Source: Dehalococcoidia bacterium
Lineage (GTDB): Bacteria > Chloroflexota > Dehalococcoidia > Lucifugimonadales > Lucifugimonadaceae
Assembly: GCA_029940375.1 (NCBI GenBank)
Contig: JAPYUX010000001.1
Span: forward strand, 33,641 to 97,640
Length of the DNA stretch: 64,000 bases
Direction: 5' to 3'
Under the pieces are notes generated by a model that saw only the letters and a list, made by a program, of their open reading frames with translations, searched no databases and was not told where the DNA came from. The translations under genes were made by a program, and so were the position numbers. The first letter of the stretch is position 1. The number at the start of each line of letters is the position of its first letter. Below, piece after piece: positions 53,113 to 61,274 of the stretch.

Positions 53113-54174
53113 ATGTATGAAAAAATAAAAGTCGGAATTATAGGAGCTGGTGCAAATACAACTCTAAAACACATTCCTCTACTTCAAAAAATTCCTGGAG
53201 TTGAAGTGGTTTCTATTGCAAACAGATCTATTAAATCTTCTAGTGCTGTGGCCTCACAATTTGAAATTAAAAATTATTATGATAATTGGTTAAAAGTGAC
53301 TGAGGATAGCTCACTTGATGCAATAGTGATTGGTACTTGGCCGAATTTGCATAAAACATTATCAATAGAAGCTTTGCAATCGGGGAAACATGTTTTGTGT
53401 GAAGCAAGAATGTGTATGAATTCATTAGAAGCTGAAGAAATGCTTTCTTGCTCAAAAAATCATCCTAACTTAATTGCCCAAATAGTACCAGCCCCACATA
53501 CTCTTCCTATAGATAAGACTATAAAAAGATTGATTTCTTCAGAATATATAGGAGATTTGATTAATTTAAGAGGCATGGTTACAGCGAGCAATGATTTTCC
53601 AAAGAAAAATGAAGATTTTCATTGGAGAAATAATAGAGATTTATCAGGTAATAATATTATGCAAATGGGGATTTGGTATGAAGCAATTATGAGATGGGTT
53701 GGACCTGCCAAATCTGTTTTAGCAAATGCCCAAACTATTATGAATCCTCGGTTAGACGAAACGGGTAATTTTGTTTTCACTGACATTCCGGATCATTTGG
53801 ATGTATTATGTGAAATGATAGCAGGAGGAACAGCAAATTTACAATTTACTATGGTTTCAGGTATGGCACCTGAATCAGAAATGTGGATTCATGGTACTGA
53901 GGGAGTAATAGTAATTAAAACTGAACCTACTCAAGATGCGGGCGCTCCTAACCTAAAAATTTATGGTGCACAAAAAGGTCAAACTTCCCTCACTGAAATA
54001 TTAGTACGAGATGATGAACAAGGCTCTTGGAGGGTTGAAGAAGAATTTATAAATGCAATTCGTGGAAAAGAGGAAATTACCCATACATCTTTTAACGATG
54101 GCGTTAAGTATATGAAATTTACTGATGCAATTTTTGAATCCTATTCAAATGGAGTAAAGATTAATTTAGATTGA
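53113..54174 (+). CDS. Gfo/Idh/MocA family oxidoreductase lacking the usual EKP lysine
   Basis: A 353-residue NAD(P)-dependent sugar/polyol dehydrogenase-like protein. The Rossmann motif GIIGAGANTTLKHIP is at residues 8-22. The usual catalytic E-K-P motif reads CEARM (Glu97, Ala98, Arg99), so the conserved lysine is absent; redox activity may be changed or lost. The C-terminal domain has FHWRNNRDLSGNNIMQMG. GAGAGG precedes ATG 53113. It heads a nine-gene operon, with pxpA starting 11 bases after its stop. Confidence 0.87.
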   Translation: MYEKIKVGIIGAGANTTLKHIPLLQKIPGVEVVSIANRSIKSSSAVASQFEIKNYYDNWLKVTEDSSLDAIVIGTWPNLHKTLSIEALQSGKHVLCEARMCMNSLEAEEMLSCSKNHPNLIAQIVPAPHTLPIDKTIKRLISSEYIGDLINLRGMVTASNDFPKKNEDFHWRNNRDLSGNNIMQMGIWYEAIMRWVGPAKSVLANAQTIMNPRLDETGNFVFTDIPDHLDVLCEMIAGGTANLQFTMVSGMAPESEMWIHGTEGVIVIKTEPTQDAGAPNLKIYGAQKGQTSLTEILVRDDEQGSWRVEEEFINAIRGKEEITHTSFNDGVKYMKFTDAIFESYSNGVKINLD

Positions 54175-54185
54175 AGGTTTGATTA

Positions 54186-54950
54186 ATGAAAGAAAAAATA
54201 GATTTAAACGCTGACATTGGAGAATCTTTTGGAACCTATAAGCTTGGTGAAGATGAAAATATTGTTTCTTTTATATCTTCAGCAAATATAGCTACTGGTT
54301 TTCACGCAGGAGATCCTAATTGGATGAAAATAACAATAGATTTGTCACTTTCAAATAACGTGAAAATAGGAGCACATCCCTCTTATCCAGATTTAAATGG
54401 TTTTGGTCGTAGAAATATGGATTTAAATTCTTTGGAAATAGAAAATATTATTAAATATCAAGTTGGATCAATGATTGGATTTACAGGATTGAAAAATCTT
54501 CAACATGTGAAACCCCACGGTGCTTTATATAATAAAGCAGTAAACGACCCAATGGTCGCGAATTCTATAATTAAAGCTATTAAGTCTATAAGTTCAGAAA
54601 TTATTCATGTAGTTCTTGCAGGATCTTTATGGGAAAATTTGGCAGATGAATCAAATGTAAAATATGCTCGAGAAGCATATGCTGATCGAGAAATTATGTC
54701 AGATGGATCATTATGCCCAAGAAACATAGAAGGATCGGTTATAACTGATAAGGATTTAATAGCTAAAAGAAGTTTAGATATAGTATTAAATAAAAAAGTA
54801 CAATCATTTGAAGGAGATTATGTTAATGTTGTTGCAGATACAATTTGTCTTCATGGTGACACAAAAGGTGCCGTTCAGATTGCAAATGTAGTATTTAATA
54901 ATCTTAAAAAAAATCATATTGATATTGTACCAATGAGTGAAATTTTATGA
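54186..54950 (+). CDS. pxpA: 5-Oxoprolinase subunit A (LamB/YcsF family)
   Basis: A 254-residue protein with the full family signature: DLNADIGESFGTYKLG, ANIATGFHAGDP, VKIGAHPSYPDL and VKPHGALYN. PxpA with PxpB and PxpC hydrolyses 5-oxoproline to glutamate at the cost of ATP. It overlaps pxpB by four bases (ATGA). Here the set is followed by a biotin carrier and Na+-pump subunits, which is not the usual company. Confidence 0.93.
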   Translation: MKEKIDLNADIGESFGTYKLGEDENIVSFISSANIATGFHAGDPNWMKITIDLSLSNNVKIGAHPSYPDLNGFGRRNMDLNSLEIENIIKYQVGSMIGFTGLKNLQHVKPHGALYNKAVNDPMVANSIIKAIKSISSEIIHVVLAGSLWENLADESNVKYAREAYADREIMSDGSLCPRNIEGSVITDKDLIAKRSLDIVLNKKVQSFEGDYVNVVADTICLHGDTKGAVQIANVVFNNLKKNHIDIVPMSEIL

Positions 54951-55618
54951 TGATGGATTATGAAGTAATCCATCACGGAGAATCAACGATTGAAATTTCC
55001 TTAGGTAAATCTATTGATATGAAGATAAATTTGGTCATTCATTCCTTTTTTTCATTTTTAACTGATAATTTGGATAATCGTACCAATTATATTGTAGATT
55101 TTTATCCAACATATCATTCTATATTTATTGATTTCAATGAACTGAAAACAGATTTCTATCATATAAAACAAAAAATTGTTGAATTGATAAAAGAATTTGA
55201 AATTGTTGGTTTTGACGATAATTCCAAAAAAGAGATAATAGAAATCCCTGTTAATTATGGAGGTAAAGACGGATTTGATCTTGAAAAATTGTCCTCCATT
55301 GTTGGATTATCTGAAAAAGAAGTTATACAAATTCACACGAAACCTCTGTATAAAGTATTTATGATAGGTTTTATGCCAGGATTCCCTTATCTAGGAGGTC
55401 TAGATAAAAGAATTTCATGCTTAAGATTAGAAACTCCTAGACCAAAAATTCCAGAAGGATCTGTTGGAATAGCTGGTGACCAAACAGGAATTTATCCTTT
55501 TGCTACTCCTGGTGGTTGGAGAATCATAGGAAGAACAGAACTGAAACTGTTTGAAATAGACAAAACTCCACCAACAAAAATACCAACTGGATCTTTCGTA
55601 AAATTTATTGAGGTATAA
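54947..55618 (+). CDS. pxpB: 5-Oxoprolinase subunit B / KipI-AHS1 family
   Basis: A 223-residue AHS1 (carboxyltransferase subdomain) protein. The family core is visible in GFMPGFPYLGGLDKRI, TPRPKIPEGSVGIAGDQTGI and YPFATPGGWRIIGRT. AHS1 and AHS2 domains also make up the carboxyltransferase of urea carboxylase, which is homologous. It begins inside the pxpA stop and ends two bases before pxpC. Confidence 0.92.
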   Translation: MMMDYEVIHHGESTIEISLGKSIDMKINLVIHSFFSFLTDNLDNRTNYIVDFYPTYHSIFIDFNELKTDFYHIKQKIVELIKEFEIVGFDDNSKKEIIEIPVNYGGKDGFDLEKLSSIVGLSEKEVIQIHTKPLYKVFMIGFMPGFPYLGGLDKRISCLRLETPRPKIPEGSVGIAGDQTGIYPFATPGGWRIIGRTELKLFEIDKTPPTKIPTGSFVKFIEV

Positions 55619-55620
55619 AT

Positions 55621-56658
55621 ATGCTGGAAATATTAAAAAGTGGATTATTTTCTTCTTTTCAAGATATAGGTAGATTTGGACTAAAACAATATGGTGTTTC
55701 TAATTCGGGGTGTCAAGACCGATATTCTTTTACTTTTGCGAACCTTCTATTAAATAATGATATTAACGAAGCATGCATAGAGATAGTGGGCGGAAATTTT
55801 AAATGTAAATTTTTTGAAAAAGTTTCTATTGCTGTCACAGGTCCATCAGAACAATGTTTGATCAACAATGAAAAAAAATTGGAAACATATTCTTCTGCAA
55901 TTGTTGGAGTTGGTGATGTTTTAGAAATAAAACCAAGTAAAACGGGACGAATTCATTATTTAAGTGTAAGTGGTGGATTTGATTTAAATAAAATTTTAGG
56001 ATCTTATTCTTATCATTCTCCATCAAGTATTACTGATGAATATAAGCTTAAGAGTAATCAAAAGATAAAGTTTAAAAGACCAAAAATAACGACCCCAGTG
56101 ATTTTCAATAAAGATTTTTATAAGAAATATATCGAATCAAAAGGGATCATTAAAATTATTTATAACCAGGATATTAATAAACAACTTCAGAATCAGATAG
56201 AATCACGAGAATATATTGTAAATATTAATTCAAATCGACAAGCAATAAAGTTAGAATCAGATCCAGTAAAAGAATTTTTCAAACAGAACGAAATCTCTAA
56301 TGGAGTTACTTTGGGAACTGTTCAAATACCTCCTGATGGCCTTCCTATAATTTTAATGCAGGACTCACAAACTGTAGGAGGATATAAAACAATTGGAGTT
56401 GTCCCTAAATACCAAATTCCAAGCATAGCTCAAATTCAACCAAATATTCCTATAAAATTTCAAGGTGTTACGCTCTCAGAAGCCAGTAGAATTAATAGAA
56501 ATATAAATGATGAAATTAATAGAAGTAATTTTATTAAATATCAATTTACTGAGCTATATGTTAATAACAAAAAAATTTCAGTAAAGATTACAGAAAATGA
56601 TAGTATAATAGCCATAGTTGATGATGATGTTTTTGAAGTATATAAGGAAATAAATTGA
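55621..56658 (+). CDS. pxpC: 5-Oxoprolinase subunit C / KipA-AHS2 family (biotin-dependent carboxyltransferase-like)
   Basis: A 345-residue AHS2 protein. The opening LKSGLFSSFQDIGRFGLKQ and GVSNSGCQDRYSFTFANLLL are typical, as is VTLGTVQIPPDGLPIILMQD in the C-terminal half with TVGGYKTIGVV. Proteins of this family are often labelled biotin-dependent carboxyltransferases from homology to urea carboxylase. In this operon the next genes encode OadG and a biotin carrier, so a true carboxyltransferase role is plausible. Its stop overlaps the OadG start. Confidence 0.92.
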   Translation: MLEILKSGLFSSFQDIGRFGLKQYGVSNSGCQDRYSFTFANLLLNNDINEACIEIVGGNFKCKFFEKVSIAVTGPSEQCLINNEKKLETYSSAIVGVGDVLEIKPSKTGRIHYLSVSGGFDLNKILGSYSYHSPSSITDEYKLKSNQKIKFKRPKITTPVIFNKDFYKKYIESKGIIKIIYNQDINKQLQNQIESREYIVNINSNRQAIKLESDPVKEFFKQNEISNGVTLGTVQIPPDGLPIILMQDSQTVGGYKTIGVVPKYQIPSIAQIQPNIPIKFQGVTLSEASRINRNINDEINRSNFIKYQFTELYVNNKKISVKITENDSIIAIVDDDVFEVYKEIN

Positions 56659-56978
56659 ATGTTATGATAGATGGTTTGTATCTAACTCTTGTTGGCTTAT
56701 GTGTAGTTTTTGTAGTTTTAATTTTATTGATGCTTTCCATTTACTTTCTAAATTTATTTGAAGGGAAGTTCTTTTCAAATGATAATAAGCTTGTTGCTAA
56801 AGCGGCTACAGGAATCAACAATTCAATAACTAAAGATATAGCAGCTGCTGTAGCAGTAGCGCTCTACAATAAAAACAAAATTAAACAAAATGTCAATCTT
56901 GAATATGTAATCAAAGATAACTCTTGGATTACTGTAAATAGATCAAGAATATTATTGAAAAGATCTGCAAGGAAGTAA
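56655..56978 (+). CDS. Na+-transporting decarboxylase gamma subunit (OadG family)
   Basis: A 107-residue protein with one N-terminal membrane helix (about residues 9-33, LVGLCVVFVVLILLMLSI), then a polar region, the layout of OadG, which links alpha and beta subunits of oxaloacetate-type decarboxylases. The AHS-like AAAVAVALYNKNK is typical of OadG in such pumps. I prefer TTG 56655, overlapping the pxpC stop, with AAGGA seven bases upstream; ATG 56664 is an alternative. Confidence 0.83.
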   Translation: MNVMIDGLYLTLVGLCVVFVVLILLMLSIYFLNLFEGKFFSNDNKLVAKAATGINNSITKDIAAAVAVALYNKNKIKQNVNLEYVIKDNSWITVNRSRILLKRSARK

Positions 56979-56980
56979 TT

Positions 56981-57415
56981 TTGAATCAATTTGAATTTAT
57001 GATAAATAACGAAAAATTTCATGTTGAAATTTTGGAAGAAACTTCAGAAACCTACAAGGTAAAAGTTAATGAAGAGATTATTATTGTAAATAAATCAAAA
57101 TATGAAAAAGAAAAAGATTTTTCAACGGAAGATTTGATAAAATCTAAGCTAGAGAATCAGGATTCAAAAGTTAAAACTCCTATTAGTCCTCCTGGTAATA
57201 AAGCTGGGGATATAACAGCATTAATGCCTGGGAAAGTGATTCAGATAATAGTAAAAGAAGGTCAAAAAATAAAGGTCGGTGACCCTCTTATAGTAATTGA
57301 ATCAATGAAAATGGAAAACACCATTTCATCTGAGGTAAATGGTACTATCAAATCTATAAATATTCAAATTGATGAAAATGTACAATTTGATCAAGTTTTA
57401 TTCACGGTTATTTAA
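56981..57415 (+). CDS. Biotin carboxyl carrier protein
   Basis: A 144-residue protein. Residues about 75-144 form a biotinyl domain with the biotin lysine Lys110 in VIESMKMENTI; before it are a Pro/Gly linker (TPISPPGNKAG) and an N-terminal domain of about 60 residues. It starts at TTG 56981, two bases after oadG. It should shuttle the carboxyl group to OadB, which decarboxylates carboxybiotin and exports Na+. It resembles the C-terminal part of OadA or MmdC. Confidence 0.92.
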   Translation: MNQFEFMINNEKFHVEILEETSETYKVKVNEEIIIVNKSKYEKEKDFSTEDLIKSKLENQDSKVKTPISPPGNKAGDITALMPGKVIQIIVKEGQKIKVGDPLIVIESMKMENTISSEVNGTIKSINIQIDENVQFDQVLFTVI

Positions 57416-57434
57416 AATGATGAAGGTTATATAA

Positions 57435-58634
57435 ATGATTGATTATATTGAGCCTATATTTGAAGGATTGAAAAGTTTATTTTACGACCCCAAAATAATA
57501 ATTATGTGGTTTGTTTCCGCTATTTTATTTTACTTTGGAATTGTCAAAAAAAAGGAACCTTTGTTACTAATTCCTATTTCTTCGGGGATTTTGTTTGCTA
57601 ATTTACCGATGGGAGAATTAATAAGAGTCGGAGGTAATGGTGAACCAGATGGTTTCATAAAAATTTTTCAAGATATAGGATTATCTACCGATATTTTACC
57701 ATTGCTGGTATTTTTGGGTATGGGAGCTCTAACTGACTTTGAGCCAGTTCTGTCAAACCCCAAAACTTTATTACTTGGAGCTGCTGCACAAGTAGGTGTT
57801 TTTGCTGCTTTATTGGGAGCATTATTATTAGGTATGACCCCTTGGTTTAACTTTGGACTCTTAGAAGCTTCTTCAATTGGAATTATAGGAGGTGCTGATG
57901 GCCCTACTACTATTTTTATTTCGACTAGGATGAGAGAAATTGGTCAGAGCATTCCAAATTTAAATATTATGGATATAGTTGGTGCAACTGCTGTTGCCGC
58001 ATATTCTTACATGGCTCTGGTTCCAATAATTCAACCACCTATTATAAGACTATTCACTACAAAAAAGGAAAGAAAAATCAGAATGGATTATGCTTCCAAA
58101 AAAATATCTAAAAGAACAAAAATTATTTTTCCTATAGCAACATTAATTATAGTGAGTGTTTTGGTTCCTGATGCTTCTCCATTGATATCGATTATGATGT
58201 TTGGGAATTTATTGAGAGAAAGTGGAGTAGTTGATAGATTGGCTAAGACTGCACAAAATGATTTGATGAATATAGTTATAATTTTATTGGGACTATCTGT
58301 TGGAGCGACTATGCCAGCAAATGTGTTTTTGAAATTAGAAACAATTTCTATATTCATTTTGGGATTATTTTCATTTGTATTTGCTACAATTTCTGGAATT
58401 TTATTAGCAAAATTTATGAATCTCTTTTTATCCAAACCAATTAATCCAATGATTGGAGCTGCAGGAGTTTCAGCTGTTCCAATGGCAGCTAGAGTAGTCC
58501 AAAATGAAGCTATAAAAGAAGATCCTAGTAATTTTTTGCTAATGCATGCGATGGGTCCTAATGTTGCTGGTGTAATTGGAACAGCTACTGTTGCGGGTGT
58601 CTTATTAGCCATAGTTCCAAATTTAGTTAGATAA
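57435..58634 (+). CDS. oadB: Na+-translocating decarboxylase beta subunit (OadB family)
   Basis: A 399-residue membrane protein with about 11 hydrophobic segments. The Na+/carboxybiotin site signature GGADGPTTIF lies near residue 152, followed by MDIVGATAVAAYSYMALVPIIQPP; the second repeat has IGAAGVSAVPMAARVVQNEA. OadB decarboxylates carboxybiotin and pumps Na+ out. Neighbouring genes supply OadG and a biotin carrier but no OadA/MmdA-type carboxyltransferase. Confidence 0.95.
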   Translation: MIDYIEPIFEGLKSLFYDPKIIIMWFVSAILFYFGIVKKKEPLLLIPISSGILFANLPMGELIRVGGNGEPDGFIKIFQDIGLSTDILPLLVFLGMGALTDFEPVLSNPKTLLLGAAAQVGVFAALLGALLLGMTPWFNFGLLEASSIGIIGGADGPTTIFISTRMREIGQSIPNLNIMDIVGATAVAAYSYMALVPIIQPPIIRLFTTKKERKIRMDYASKKISKRTKIIFPIATLIIVSVLVPDASPLISIMMFGNLLRESGVVDRLAKTAQNDLMNIVIILLGLSVGATMPANVFLKLETISIFILGLFSFVFATISGILLAKFMNLFLSKPINPMIGAAGVSAVPMAARVVQNEAIKEDPSNFLLMHAMGPNVAGVIGTATVAGVLLAIVPNLVR

Positions 58635-58644
58635 GAAGATTGCC

Positions 58645-59538
58645 ATGAGACATCTAAATTTTAAAGGTATATTCCCTATAATTTCCACCCCTTTTAATGC
58701 TAAAGAGGAAATTGTATATGAAGATGTTCGACGTCAAGTAGACTGGCTCATAGACAATGGAGTTGATGGAATAGGAATAGCTATAGCAAGCGAAATTTAT
58801 AAACTTAATGATAATGAAAAATTTGATTTATTAAGTACAGTTGTTGATCAAGCATCTTCTAGGGTTCCTATAATTATGAACACTGGGGCTGAAAGTACTT
58901 TTTCTACTATTTTTTATTCTAAAAAAGCTGAAGAATTAGGTGCAAATGGATTAATGATAAGACCTCCCTCTTTTATAAAAACCTCACCTTTTTTACACGA
59001 AGAATTTTATTTCAATATTGCAAATTCAGTTGATATTCCAATCTTTATGCAAGACCAAAATGACGCAAGCATCTCAAGTGAACAGGCACTCAAAATTTCA
59101 AATTTACATGAAAATTTATCTTATATTAAATTAGAAAGTATGCCTACTATACCTAAATTCGATTTTTGTAACAATAATTCTTCTCGTGAAAAATTAATCT
59201 TATTTGGCGGCGCCGGCGGATTATTTTTTTTGGAAGAGTTAAGACGAGGATCATCAGGTACAATGCCGGGTTCTACATTGCCAGATGTTTTTGTAAAAGT
59301 TTGGAATTTATGGCAAAAAAAAGATTTTGAAAAAGCCCTTTCATTTTATTCTAATTATTCTCAGTTGATAAAAATATTAGCGCAATCTCAAGGTTTATCC
59401 AATTGGATTTATAAATATATTATGTATAAAAGAGGTATATTTAGTAAATCATCAATACATGCTAGAAATCCGGCAATGAAACCAAGTAAATTACATTTCC
59501 AAGAAATTGATAAACTTTTAGATATAAATAATTTATAA
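58645..59538 (+). CDS. Dihydrodipicolinate synthase family lyase
   Basis: A 297-residue DapA/NanA-type TIM barrel that forms a Schiff base with a 2-oxo acid. The Schiff-base lysine is Lys162 in SYIKLES. The usual tyrosine region Y-N-x-P reads FMQDQND (residues 135-140), and the T-T-G-E loop reads AIASE, so this is not a genuine DapA and probably acts as an aldolase or dehydratase on another oxo acid. It sits 10 bases after oadB, in the same operon. Confidence 0.85.
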   Translation: MRHLNFKGIFPIISTPFNAKEEIVYEDVRRQVDWLIDNGVDGIGIAIASEIYKLNDNEKFDLLSTVVDQASSRVPIIMNTGAESTFSTIFYSKKAEELGANGLMIRPPSFIKTSPFLHEEFYFNIANSVDIPIFMQDQNDASISSEQALKISNLHENLSYIKLESMPTIPKFDFCNNNSSREKLILFGGAGGLFFLEELRRGSSGTMPGSTLPDVFVKVWNLWQKKDFEKALSFYSNYSQLIKILAQSQGLSNWIYKYIMYKRGIFSKSSIHARNPAMKPSKLHFQEIDKLLDINNL

Positions 59539-59539
59539 C

Positions 59540-60301
59540 ATGGAAAACTTATTTATCATTTATTTTTTACTTTCCTTTTTATGCCTACTCATTGGATTTT
59601 TAGGAGGAATGATGGGGATTGCTTTAGGTAGTGTTCGATTACCCATCATAATTTTTTTAGGATTTGAGCCGATCATAGCTTCATCAACTAATTTGATTGC
59701 GGTGATTTTTGGTTCAATATCAGGTCTTATCCCTGCAATAAAACAGAAAAGAGTCCCAATAAAATCTTCAATGAAAATAGCTTTTCCTTCAATAATTGCT
59801 GCGTTTTTGGGAGGATATTATGCCATACATTTTTCTGAAAGATTTATAATTATAACTATTTCCATTTGTCTATTTATTTCTGGATTTGTTTTATTTTTGA
59901 ACAAATCTTATGAACAAGAAGATAATTTAAATCAAAGTAAATTAAATTCAATAAAAGAAATATTTTTGGGAGTTTTTATAGCATATTTTGGAGGGCTTAT
60001 TGGAATCGCACTTGGGGTTTTACGTGTCCCAGCTTTAGTTTATTTTCTGAAAATGAATATTAAAACTGCTGGAGGGATTAATTTGTTACTGACAGTATTT
60101 GTAGGATCAGCTGCATTTTTGGGGCATTTATCTGCTGCAGCATTAGACTACAATTTAATTTCTGTAGTTGTTTTTCCAACAATTATTGGTATGTACTTAG
60201 GATCAAGAAAAGTTATGGATTTAAATCAAAACTTCCTAAATAAATTTGTAGGTATATTTTTAGTATTATTATCAATAATATTTTGTATTAAATTCATCTA
60301 A
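59540..60301 (+). CDS. TauE/SafE family membrane transporter
   Basis: A 253-residue protein with about eight membrane helices and two repeats of the family motif: GFLGGMMGIALGSVRLPIII at the N-terminus and GGLIGIALGVLRVPAL in the middle. The family moves sulfite, sulfonates, thiosulfate or other anions. As the last gene of the Gfo-Pxp-Oad operon it is a candidate for taking up or exporting the anionic substrate or product of the pathway. It starts one base after the lyase stop. Confidence 0.88.
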   Translation: MENLFIIYFLLSFLCLLIGFLGGMMGIALGSVRLPIIIFLGFEPIIASSTNLIAVIFGSISGLIPAIKQKRVPIKSSMKIAFPSIIAAFLGGYYAIHFSERFIIITISICLFISGFVLFLNKSYEQEDNLNQSKLNSIKEIFLGVFIAYFGGLIGIALGVLRVPALVYFLKMNIKTAGGINLLLTVFVGSAAFLGHLSAAALDYNLISVVVFPTIIGMYLGSRKVMDLNQNFLNKFVGIFLVLLSIIFCIKFI

Positions 60302-60347
60302 AGGATGAAATAAATTACCCTTTAGATAGATTAATCTACTTTTTTGT
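60297..60347 (+). terminator. Probable terminator of the Gfo-Pxp-Oad operon
   Basis: TCTAAAGG (60297-60304) and CCTTTAGA (60319-60326) form an eight-base-pair stem with a 14-base loop; it is followed by the palindrome TAGATTAATCTA (60327-60338) and CTTTTTT. The stem includes the TauE stop and the T-run overlaps the sodN 3' end, so it may serve both convergent units. Confidence 0.5.
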
Positions 60348-60761
60348 TTCCCAAAATATGTCACCGATTTCTTCTAAAGCTGCTTTGAATTCATTAGCTT
60401 TTTCCATATCAACATTTTGTTTTACAAATGAACCTAATTTACATGCATTCCATATTTTTGAATGTAAATCAGGATATTTTTCTAAATGTTCAGGCTTGAA
60501 ATAATCAGTCCAAATAATCAATATGTCATCCTTGGCTTTTTTAGCATGTTCTTCTTTAACAGAGACATATCTAGCCATAGAATTTCCAAGATTTGCTGAT
60601 GGTCCTTTTGAAAAATCTAATTCTTCAAGTAACTCAGTCATTCTTATTACTGTCTGTGCTGCCTGGATAGCGTCTCTTGGATCGTATATCCCACATGGGA
60701 TATCACAGTGACAGCTGACTTTTTTTGCAGGTGAAATTTTATTTATAATGTTAGTTATCAT
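60336..60761 (-). CDS. sodN: Nickel superoxide dismutase
   Basis: A 141-residue NiSOD. The nickel hook is HCDIPCGIYDP: His18, Cys19 and Cys23 become His1, Cys2 and Cys6 after removal of a 17-residue propeptide. The residue before the cut is Cys17, where other NiSODs often have Ala. The rest is the four-helix bundle expected (TELLEELDF, HLEKYPDLHSKIWN). The divergent neighbour encodes the maturation protease. It acts in the cytoplasm and needs nickel but not iron. Confidence 0.95.
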   Translation of the reverse strand: MITNIINKISPAKKVSCHCDIPCGIYDPRDAIQAAQTVIRMTELLEELDFSKGPSANLGNSMARYVSVKEEHAKKAKDDILIIWTDYFKPEHLEKYPDLHSKIWNACKLGSFVKQNVDMEKANEFKAALEEIGDIFWETKK

Positions 60762-60809
60762 TTTTACTCCTTTTGTACTTAATTTCTGTTTGTTTATAGA
60801 ATATATATT

Positions 60810-61274
60810 ATGTCATATTTTAAAAAAATAATTCTGATTTTTATCAAAAATCCGTTAAATATTTTCTTATATCGAAGAAGATTTTTACGCATTGAAACTT
60901 TTGGAGAAAGTATGAAACCTAATTTTTCCCCAGGGGAATTTTACTTGGTAAAAAGGAATTTTAATCCTTATTTATTTGAGAGATTTGATATTGTTGTTAT
61001 GCATTGTCACATACACAATAGTATTCATTTAAAACGTATTGTTGGTATTTCTAAAGAAAAAATTTCATATAAGAAAGGAATTTTGTATATTAACGGAGAA
61101 AAAATTCTAGAGAAAAATGTGACACACAATAAAAAAATAAACATTTCAATTATTCTTGGAGAAAATGAATATTTTGTAATGTCTGATAACAGAGAAAATT
61201 ATAACTTTAACTGCGACTCATTCAACACAGGACCTGTTAAAGTTGATCATGTTTTAGGTAAAGTTATTACCTAA
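60810..61274 (+). CDS. sodX: Nickel superoxide dismutase maturation protease (SodX)
   Basis: A 154-residue S26/S24-type signal peptidase-like protease that trims the NiSOD propeptide. The Ser/Lys pair is Ser34 in FGESMKP and Lys75 in HLKRIVGI, with the box FVMSDNRENYNFNCDSF near the end. A hydrophobic, basic stretch at residues 5-27 may be a membrane-associated segment. Start at ATG 60810, 48 bases from the divergent sodN start, which is the conserved sodN-sodX arrangement. Confidence 0.9.
   Translation: MSYFKKIILIFIKNPLNIFLYRRRFLRIETFGESMKPNFSPGEFYLVKRNFNPYLFERFDIVVMHCHIHNSIHLKRIVGISKEKISYKKGILYINGEKILEKNVTHNKKINISIILGENEYFVMSDNRENYNFNCDSFNTGPVKVDHVLGKVIT

Follow-up and report, generated by a model that had tools for sequence, protein, structure and literature searches.

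A PxpABC, biotin carrier and Na+ pump gene cluster in marine SAR202 genomes without biotin carboxylase suggests that a Na+ gradient may power biotin chemistry

The Na+-translocating decarboxylases of methylmalonyl-CoA (MMD), oxaloacetate (OAD) and glutaconyl-CoA (GCD) are built on OadB, an OadG/MmdD subunit and a separate biotin carrier. Those OadB pumps that have been characterised operate outward, mostly in anaerobes. To our knowledge, all known biotin carboxylases (BC) are ATP-grasp enzymes. The prokaryotic 5-oxoprolinase PxpABC is ATP-dependent and has three subunits, and in Mycobacterium smegmatis a PxpBC-like pair (MSMEG_0435-0436) is attached to a long-chain acyl-CoA carboxylase complex containing AccA3 (PDB 9yx5). 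Lombard and Moreira (PMC3199775) raised the question of whether homologues of the urea carboxylase carboxyltransferase (CT) domain might pair with other biotin carboxylases. Here we analyse an operon that brings these parts together, located in a window of 64,000 nucleotides (the whole stretch of DNA studied; contig JAPYUX010000001.1 of assembly GCA_029940375.1) from a Dehalococcoidia bacterium of the marine SAR202 clade. The source genome is a metagenome-assembled genome (MAG) of 1.47 Mb with a completeness of 92.9%.

The operon comprises nine genes on the + strand in the order Gfo/Idh-PxpA-PxpB-PxpC-OadG-BCCP-OadB-DapA-TauE, where BCCP is the biotin carboxyl carrier protein, with intergenic gaps of 11, -4, 2, -4, 2, 19, 10 and 1 bases. 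The gene identities, obtained from Pfam and NCBIfam profile searches of the operon proteins, agree with those in the original prediction, which had been made from the sequence alone, and so do the features on which it relied: the biotinylation lysine (K110), the OadG helix and the OadB Na+ site. In alignments, OadG has a single membrane helix followed by a cytosolic tail (AAAVAVAL ... SWITVNRSR), and residues D155, N337, G341 and S346 of OadB are the equivalents of D203, N373, G377 and S382 of Salmonella OadB (6iva/6iww), whose roles in the Na+ site have been described (PMC7274780). The order of OadG, carrier and OadB and the Na+-site residues are thus those of MMD, OAD and GCD, but here PxpABC stands at the place of mmdA, an MmdA-like gene lies elsewhere and the genome is without BC. 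The model of PxpC (pLDDT 88.7) bears out the kinship to urea carboxylase on which the original prediction drew, sharing the CT fold of KlUC across 298 aligned residues (3va7/5i8i; Z scores of 24.6 and 33.3), and matches E. coli YbgK at Z 36.0 and MSMEG_0435 at Z 33.9. Unlike in urea carboxylase, the subunits are split, the identity is 26%, there is no BC domain, and PxpA takes the place of allophanate hydrolase. The M. smegmatis complex likewise joins a PxpBC-type pair to a protein with BC and BCCP domains, but it is ATP-driven and soluble. All three 5-oxoprolinase subunits are encoded side by side in the operon, but PxpC does not reach the curated equivalog cut-off and the neighbours are a conserved biotin carrier and Na+ pump. 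Among the papers accessible to us, we found none joining 5-oxoprolinase with Na+ pumps and none that reports biochemistry of this clade.

To assess conservation we used 100 genomes of relatives, mostly MAGs, which are related to one another and hence not independent; kinship was therefore checked with 39 other families of the order, each represented by one genome. A co-occurrence search of the kind suggested with the original prediction gave an association: 71 of the 100 genomes carry both OadB and PxpB, 5 only OadB, 7 only PxpB and 17 neither (P = 9e-10), and the corresponding counts in the 39 other families are 16, 4, 3 and 16 (P = 9e-5). The two genes lie within 5 kb of each other in 64 of the 71 genomes with both: 51 of these, all from the family of the window, have them on one strand, and 13, each of a different other family, have them in divergent orientation. 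The closest named records are Chloroflexi/SAR202 MAGs with OadB 82-93% identical and the same operon, although the DapA gene is absent in 5 of 6. An operon peculiar to one MAG, or a misassembly, is ruled out by its retention throughout the genus and family and also in 13 further families. Elsewhere in the sampled phylum, we read 40 OadB loci; oadB usually adjoins a CT of the MmdA/PccB or OadA type there, mostly in the order mmdA-oadG-bccp-oadB, and none of these loci has pxp genes beside oadB. In gene order, therefore, PxpABC occupies the place held by MmdA in other Chloroflexota.

The absence of BC from the source genome and from 60 other OadB+ relatives is a new and important point. BC presence was scored by matches above cut-off to two Pfam domains, PF02785 and PF00289; neither the source genome nor its 8 congeners has such a match, while 13 of 14 control genomes are positive. 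The absence is a matter of many genomes, not of a single MAG, with BC lacking in 61 of 76 OadB+ relatives and present in 19 of 24 OadB- relatives (P = 2e-7). This exclusion holds across the 39 other families (P = 2e-4) and when genera are scored by majority (P = 1.3e-5), and BC is also absent from four genomes that consist of a single contig. Across the relatives, then, OadB and BC tend to exclude each other. At least two matches to the CT domain PF01039 are nevertheless retained in 53 of the 61 OadB+ relatives without BC, and another source of carboxybiotin is therefore required; candidates are a reversed OadBG or transcarboxylation from a donor. In one OadB+ genome (G099) the BC gene (L160:7792-8970) is broken over two or more frames, in pieces of 144 and 196 aa, reflecting either a decaying BC or sequencing errors. 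Seven genomes of one genus have frames of about 1100 aa that fuse BC and CT domains, with OadB retained. Among the controls, Thermotoga maritima has OadB and PYC_OADA/Carboxyl_trans matches and no BC match, resembling the pattern described here; Thermotogales without acetyl-CoA carboxylase are reported by Lombard and Moreira (PMC3199775).

Two genera of the family have no OadB, one represented by G010 and G029 and the other by G014, and both retain pxpABC followed by BCCP. The short open reading frame (ORF) between them still matches the OadG profile (hmmsearch E 1.4e-8, 5.8e-8 and 1e-7), with the membrane helix gone and the cytosolic tail kept. A stand-alone BC is encoded in G010 and G014, which seem to possess no BCCP other than the pxp-linked one, as judged by the size of open frames. 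The pxpABC-BCCP unit thus remains paired after loss of the pump. Clusters of pxpB-pxpC-BCCP-AccC are found on annotated plasmids of lactobacilli, rhizobia and Paracoccus and on a Klebsiella plasmid, and one fused form adjoins a pyroglutamyl-peptidase gene. These clusters share with our operon PxpBC, an adjacent BCCP gene and a probable biotin-dependent activation; they differ in having the ATP-dependent BC for which OadG and OadB substitute here, so that OadGB holds the position of AccC. The linkage in two arrangements, the retention of pxpABC-BCCP after OadB loss, the pxpBC-BCCP-AccC clusters and the 9yx5 complex together support a functional tie of PxpABC, the biotin carrier and OadBG.

The reading we favour, tentatively and short of calling it probable, is a biotin-linked PxpABC whose carboxybiotin partner would be the Na+-coupled OadBG instead of an ATP-dependent BC. 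In such a system, possibly a physical complex, OadB tethered via OadG would load the biotin of BCCP with CO2, driven by Na+ influx. PxpBC, acting as a CT of the urea carboxylase type, would then shift the carboxyl onto a lactam, for which 5-oxoproline is the best guess, and the ring activated in this way would be opened by PxpA; the chemical analogue would be urea carboxylase with allophanate hydrolase. Ring opening is uphill, with an equilibrium constant for Glu/5-oxoproline of ~0.035 (PMC13274462), and energy input is needed for this reason. In this reading, OadBG would most likely supply carboxybiotin from the Na+ gradient, in reverse mode, rather than export Na+. Both OAD and MMD are said to have been found reversible by a Na+ gradient by Dimroth and Hilpert in 1984.

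The original prediction had placed the same proteins in the opposite direction, as an energy-conserving decarboxylase in which PxpBC moves the carboxyl of a substrate to BCCP and OadB frees CO2 and exports Na+. It draws on the same conserved operon and on the urea-carboxylase-type fold of PxpC, and characterised pumps do run OadB in this way (PMC7274780, PMC8473912). However, a CT of this type has no known substrate in the decarboxylating direction, OadB swaps with the ATP-driven BC across relatives, and the AccDA retained without BC needs carboxybiotin to be produced rather than consumed. The exclusion between OadB and BC fits OadBG as a carboxybiotin source, with Na+ moving inward, at least as well as it fits Na+ export, and we consider the decarboxylase unlikely. 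What stands of that proposal is the tie of PxpABC, carrier and OadBG; its premise that no other CT is available to the pump does not.

The operon itself contains no CT of the OadA, MmdA or GcdA type, as had been noted, but the genome encodes an OadA-like protein (503 aa; C6:40583) that lacks a biotin domain, an MmdA/PccB-like protein (C6:159607; TIGR01117 786 bits, under the strict cut-off of 998.8) and a fused AccDA (C14:167719). A second OadA-like copy (C14:294888) lies in an identical 19.8-kb overlap of contigs C6 and C14 (L060, L061), so that two OadA genes are ruled out in favour of an assembly overlap. No biotin-type carrier apart from the BCCP of the window was found in the genome: of the remaining Biotin_lipoyl matches, two are lipoyl E2 proteins and one is HlyD-like. 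All three enzymes apparently draw on this BCCP. A separate OadA or MmdA gene pairing with OadBG had been named beforehand as the observation that would speak decisively against a PxpBC-based pump; genes of both kinds are present, though so far only as candidates for such a pairing.

For the MmdA/PccB-like protein, such a pairing is a serious rival, though we rate it as rather unlikely. OadG, BCCP and OadB would form with it a split MMD, or in reverse a Na+-driven propionyl-CoA carboxylase, and PxpABC would be an unrelated, ATP-dependent 5-oxoprolinase that happens to be a neighbour. The single BCCP for all CTs, the presence of PF01039 matches in 100 of 100 relatives and the usual Chloroflexota operon, whose OadG has the same tail motif, agree with this, and SAR202 has been credited with propionyl-CoA carboxylase, epimerase and mutase (PMC5395668). 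Mere neighbourhood, however, does not explain why the linkage of pxpABC with bccp and oadB outlasts rearrangement and oadB loss. Moreover, the MmdA-like gene accompanies not the pump genes but those for isocitrate and malate dehydrogenase in relatives, and malate dehydrogenase here, and its clade also holds relatives with BC and without OadB. Between this gene and that for malate dehydrogenase, the source genome encodes a 454-aa protein without Pfam or NCBIfam match (L062:6221-7582, on C6), in the place filled by isocitrate dehydrogenase in relatives.

A role for the OadA-like protein as the partner, either in an OAD or in an oxaloacetate-to-acyl-CoA transcarboxylase working through this BCCP, appears very improbable. 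All 9 genomes of the genus carry the gene, its product needs a separate BCCP for want of a biotin domain of its own, and OadA adjoins the MmdA-like gene in other families. In the rest of the family, however, only 6 of 47 OadB+ genomes have it, even though the pxp-oad operon is present there, and the association of OadB with OadA among relatives is not significant (P = 0.09). OadA elsewhere in the genome is thereby ruled out as a universal partner of OadBG. One genome of the order has thirteen PF02436 (PYC_OADA) matches on several contigs; the open frames that carry them span about 490-555 aa.

Returning to OadBG as a carboxybiotin source for PxpBC, the BCCP and the pump probably also serve AccDA and the MmdA/PccB-like CT. 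A stronger version, in which OadBG would be the sole source of carboxybiotin, a carboxylase driven by the Na+-motive force that replaces AccC and loads one BCCP shared by PxpBC, AccDA (for malonyl-CoA and fatty acids) and the MmdA/PccB-like protein, seems to us doubtful. Several observations weigh against a Na+-coupled, biotin-linked PxpABC. BC is present alongside OadB in 15 OadB+ genomes, and the OadA- and MmdA-like proteins may be the true partners of OadBG. Many bacteria have pxpABC without a biotin gene beside it, and a separate clade of biotin-linked PxpC including SAR202 is not supported, linked and unlinked forms being mixed in a long-branched tree. The top score of the SAR202 PxpC profile goes to E. 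coli YbgK and not to urea carboxylase. Nor is the OadG tail supported as a signature specific to PxpBC binding, the identical motif being found in canonical mmdA operons.

The features of the operon are collected in Table 1. Adjoining it are a gene for Ni-superoxide dismutase (-) and a divergent signal-peptidase-like ORF (+), at 60336-61274 of the window; the former is found at the equivalent place across the genus.

Table 1. Positions in the window of the operon genes and of the biotinylation site, with the profile matches on which each assignment is based
Feature	Position	Strand	Basis and remarks
Gfo/Idh/MocA oxidoreductase	53113..54174	+	GFO_IDH_MocA 4.5e-20; first gene of the operon; position kept near here in the family only
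PxpA (LamB/YcsF)	54186..54950	+	LamB_YcsF 4.7e-84; NF003814 311 bits, cut-off 226 (subfamily cut-off passed)
PxpB (AHS1, CT subdomains C/D)	54947..55618	+	CT_C_D 2.3e-61; TIGR00370 194 bits, cut-off 145.6 (equivalog passed)
PxpC (AHS2, CT subdomains A/B)	55621..56658	+	CT_A_B 7.6e-54; NF045499 155.8 bits, under the cut-off of 500
OadG/MmdD-like subunit	56655..56978	+	OAD_gamma 2.6e-9, 38 bits, cut-off 27; alignment
BCCP	56981..57415	+	Biotin_lipoyl 4.4e-18
Biotinylation lysine codon K110, motif ESMKMEN	57308..57310	+	BCCP sequence
OadB, Na+-translocating carboxybiotin decarboxylase subunit	57435..58634	+	OAD_beta 1e-140
DapA/NAL-family lyase	58645..59538	+	DHDPS 5e-25; companion at the family level
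TauE/SafE membrane transporter	59540..60301	+	TauE 8.3e-39; companion at the family level

The PxpABC-BCCP-Na+ pump cluster and the lack of BC in marine SAR202 suggest, on the evidence of gene content, that a Na+ gradient may power biotin chemistry in these organisms. Since BC is missing from single-contig genomes too, whether Na+ stands in for ATP is a question that can be put directly to the test. If the proposal is true, PxpBC-type proteins would gain a role as biotin carboxyltransferases, and a Na+ gradient, rather than ATP, could pay for biotin-dependent carboxylation in a widespread marine clade.

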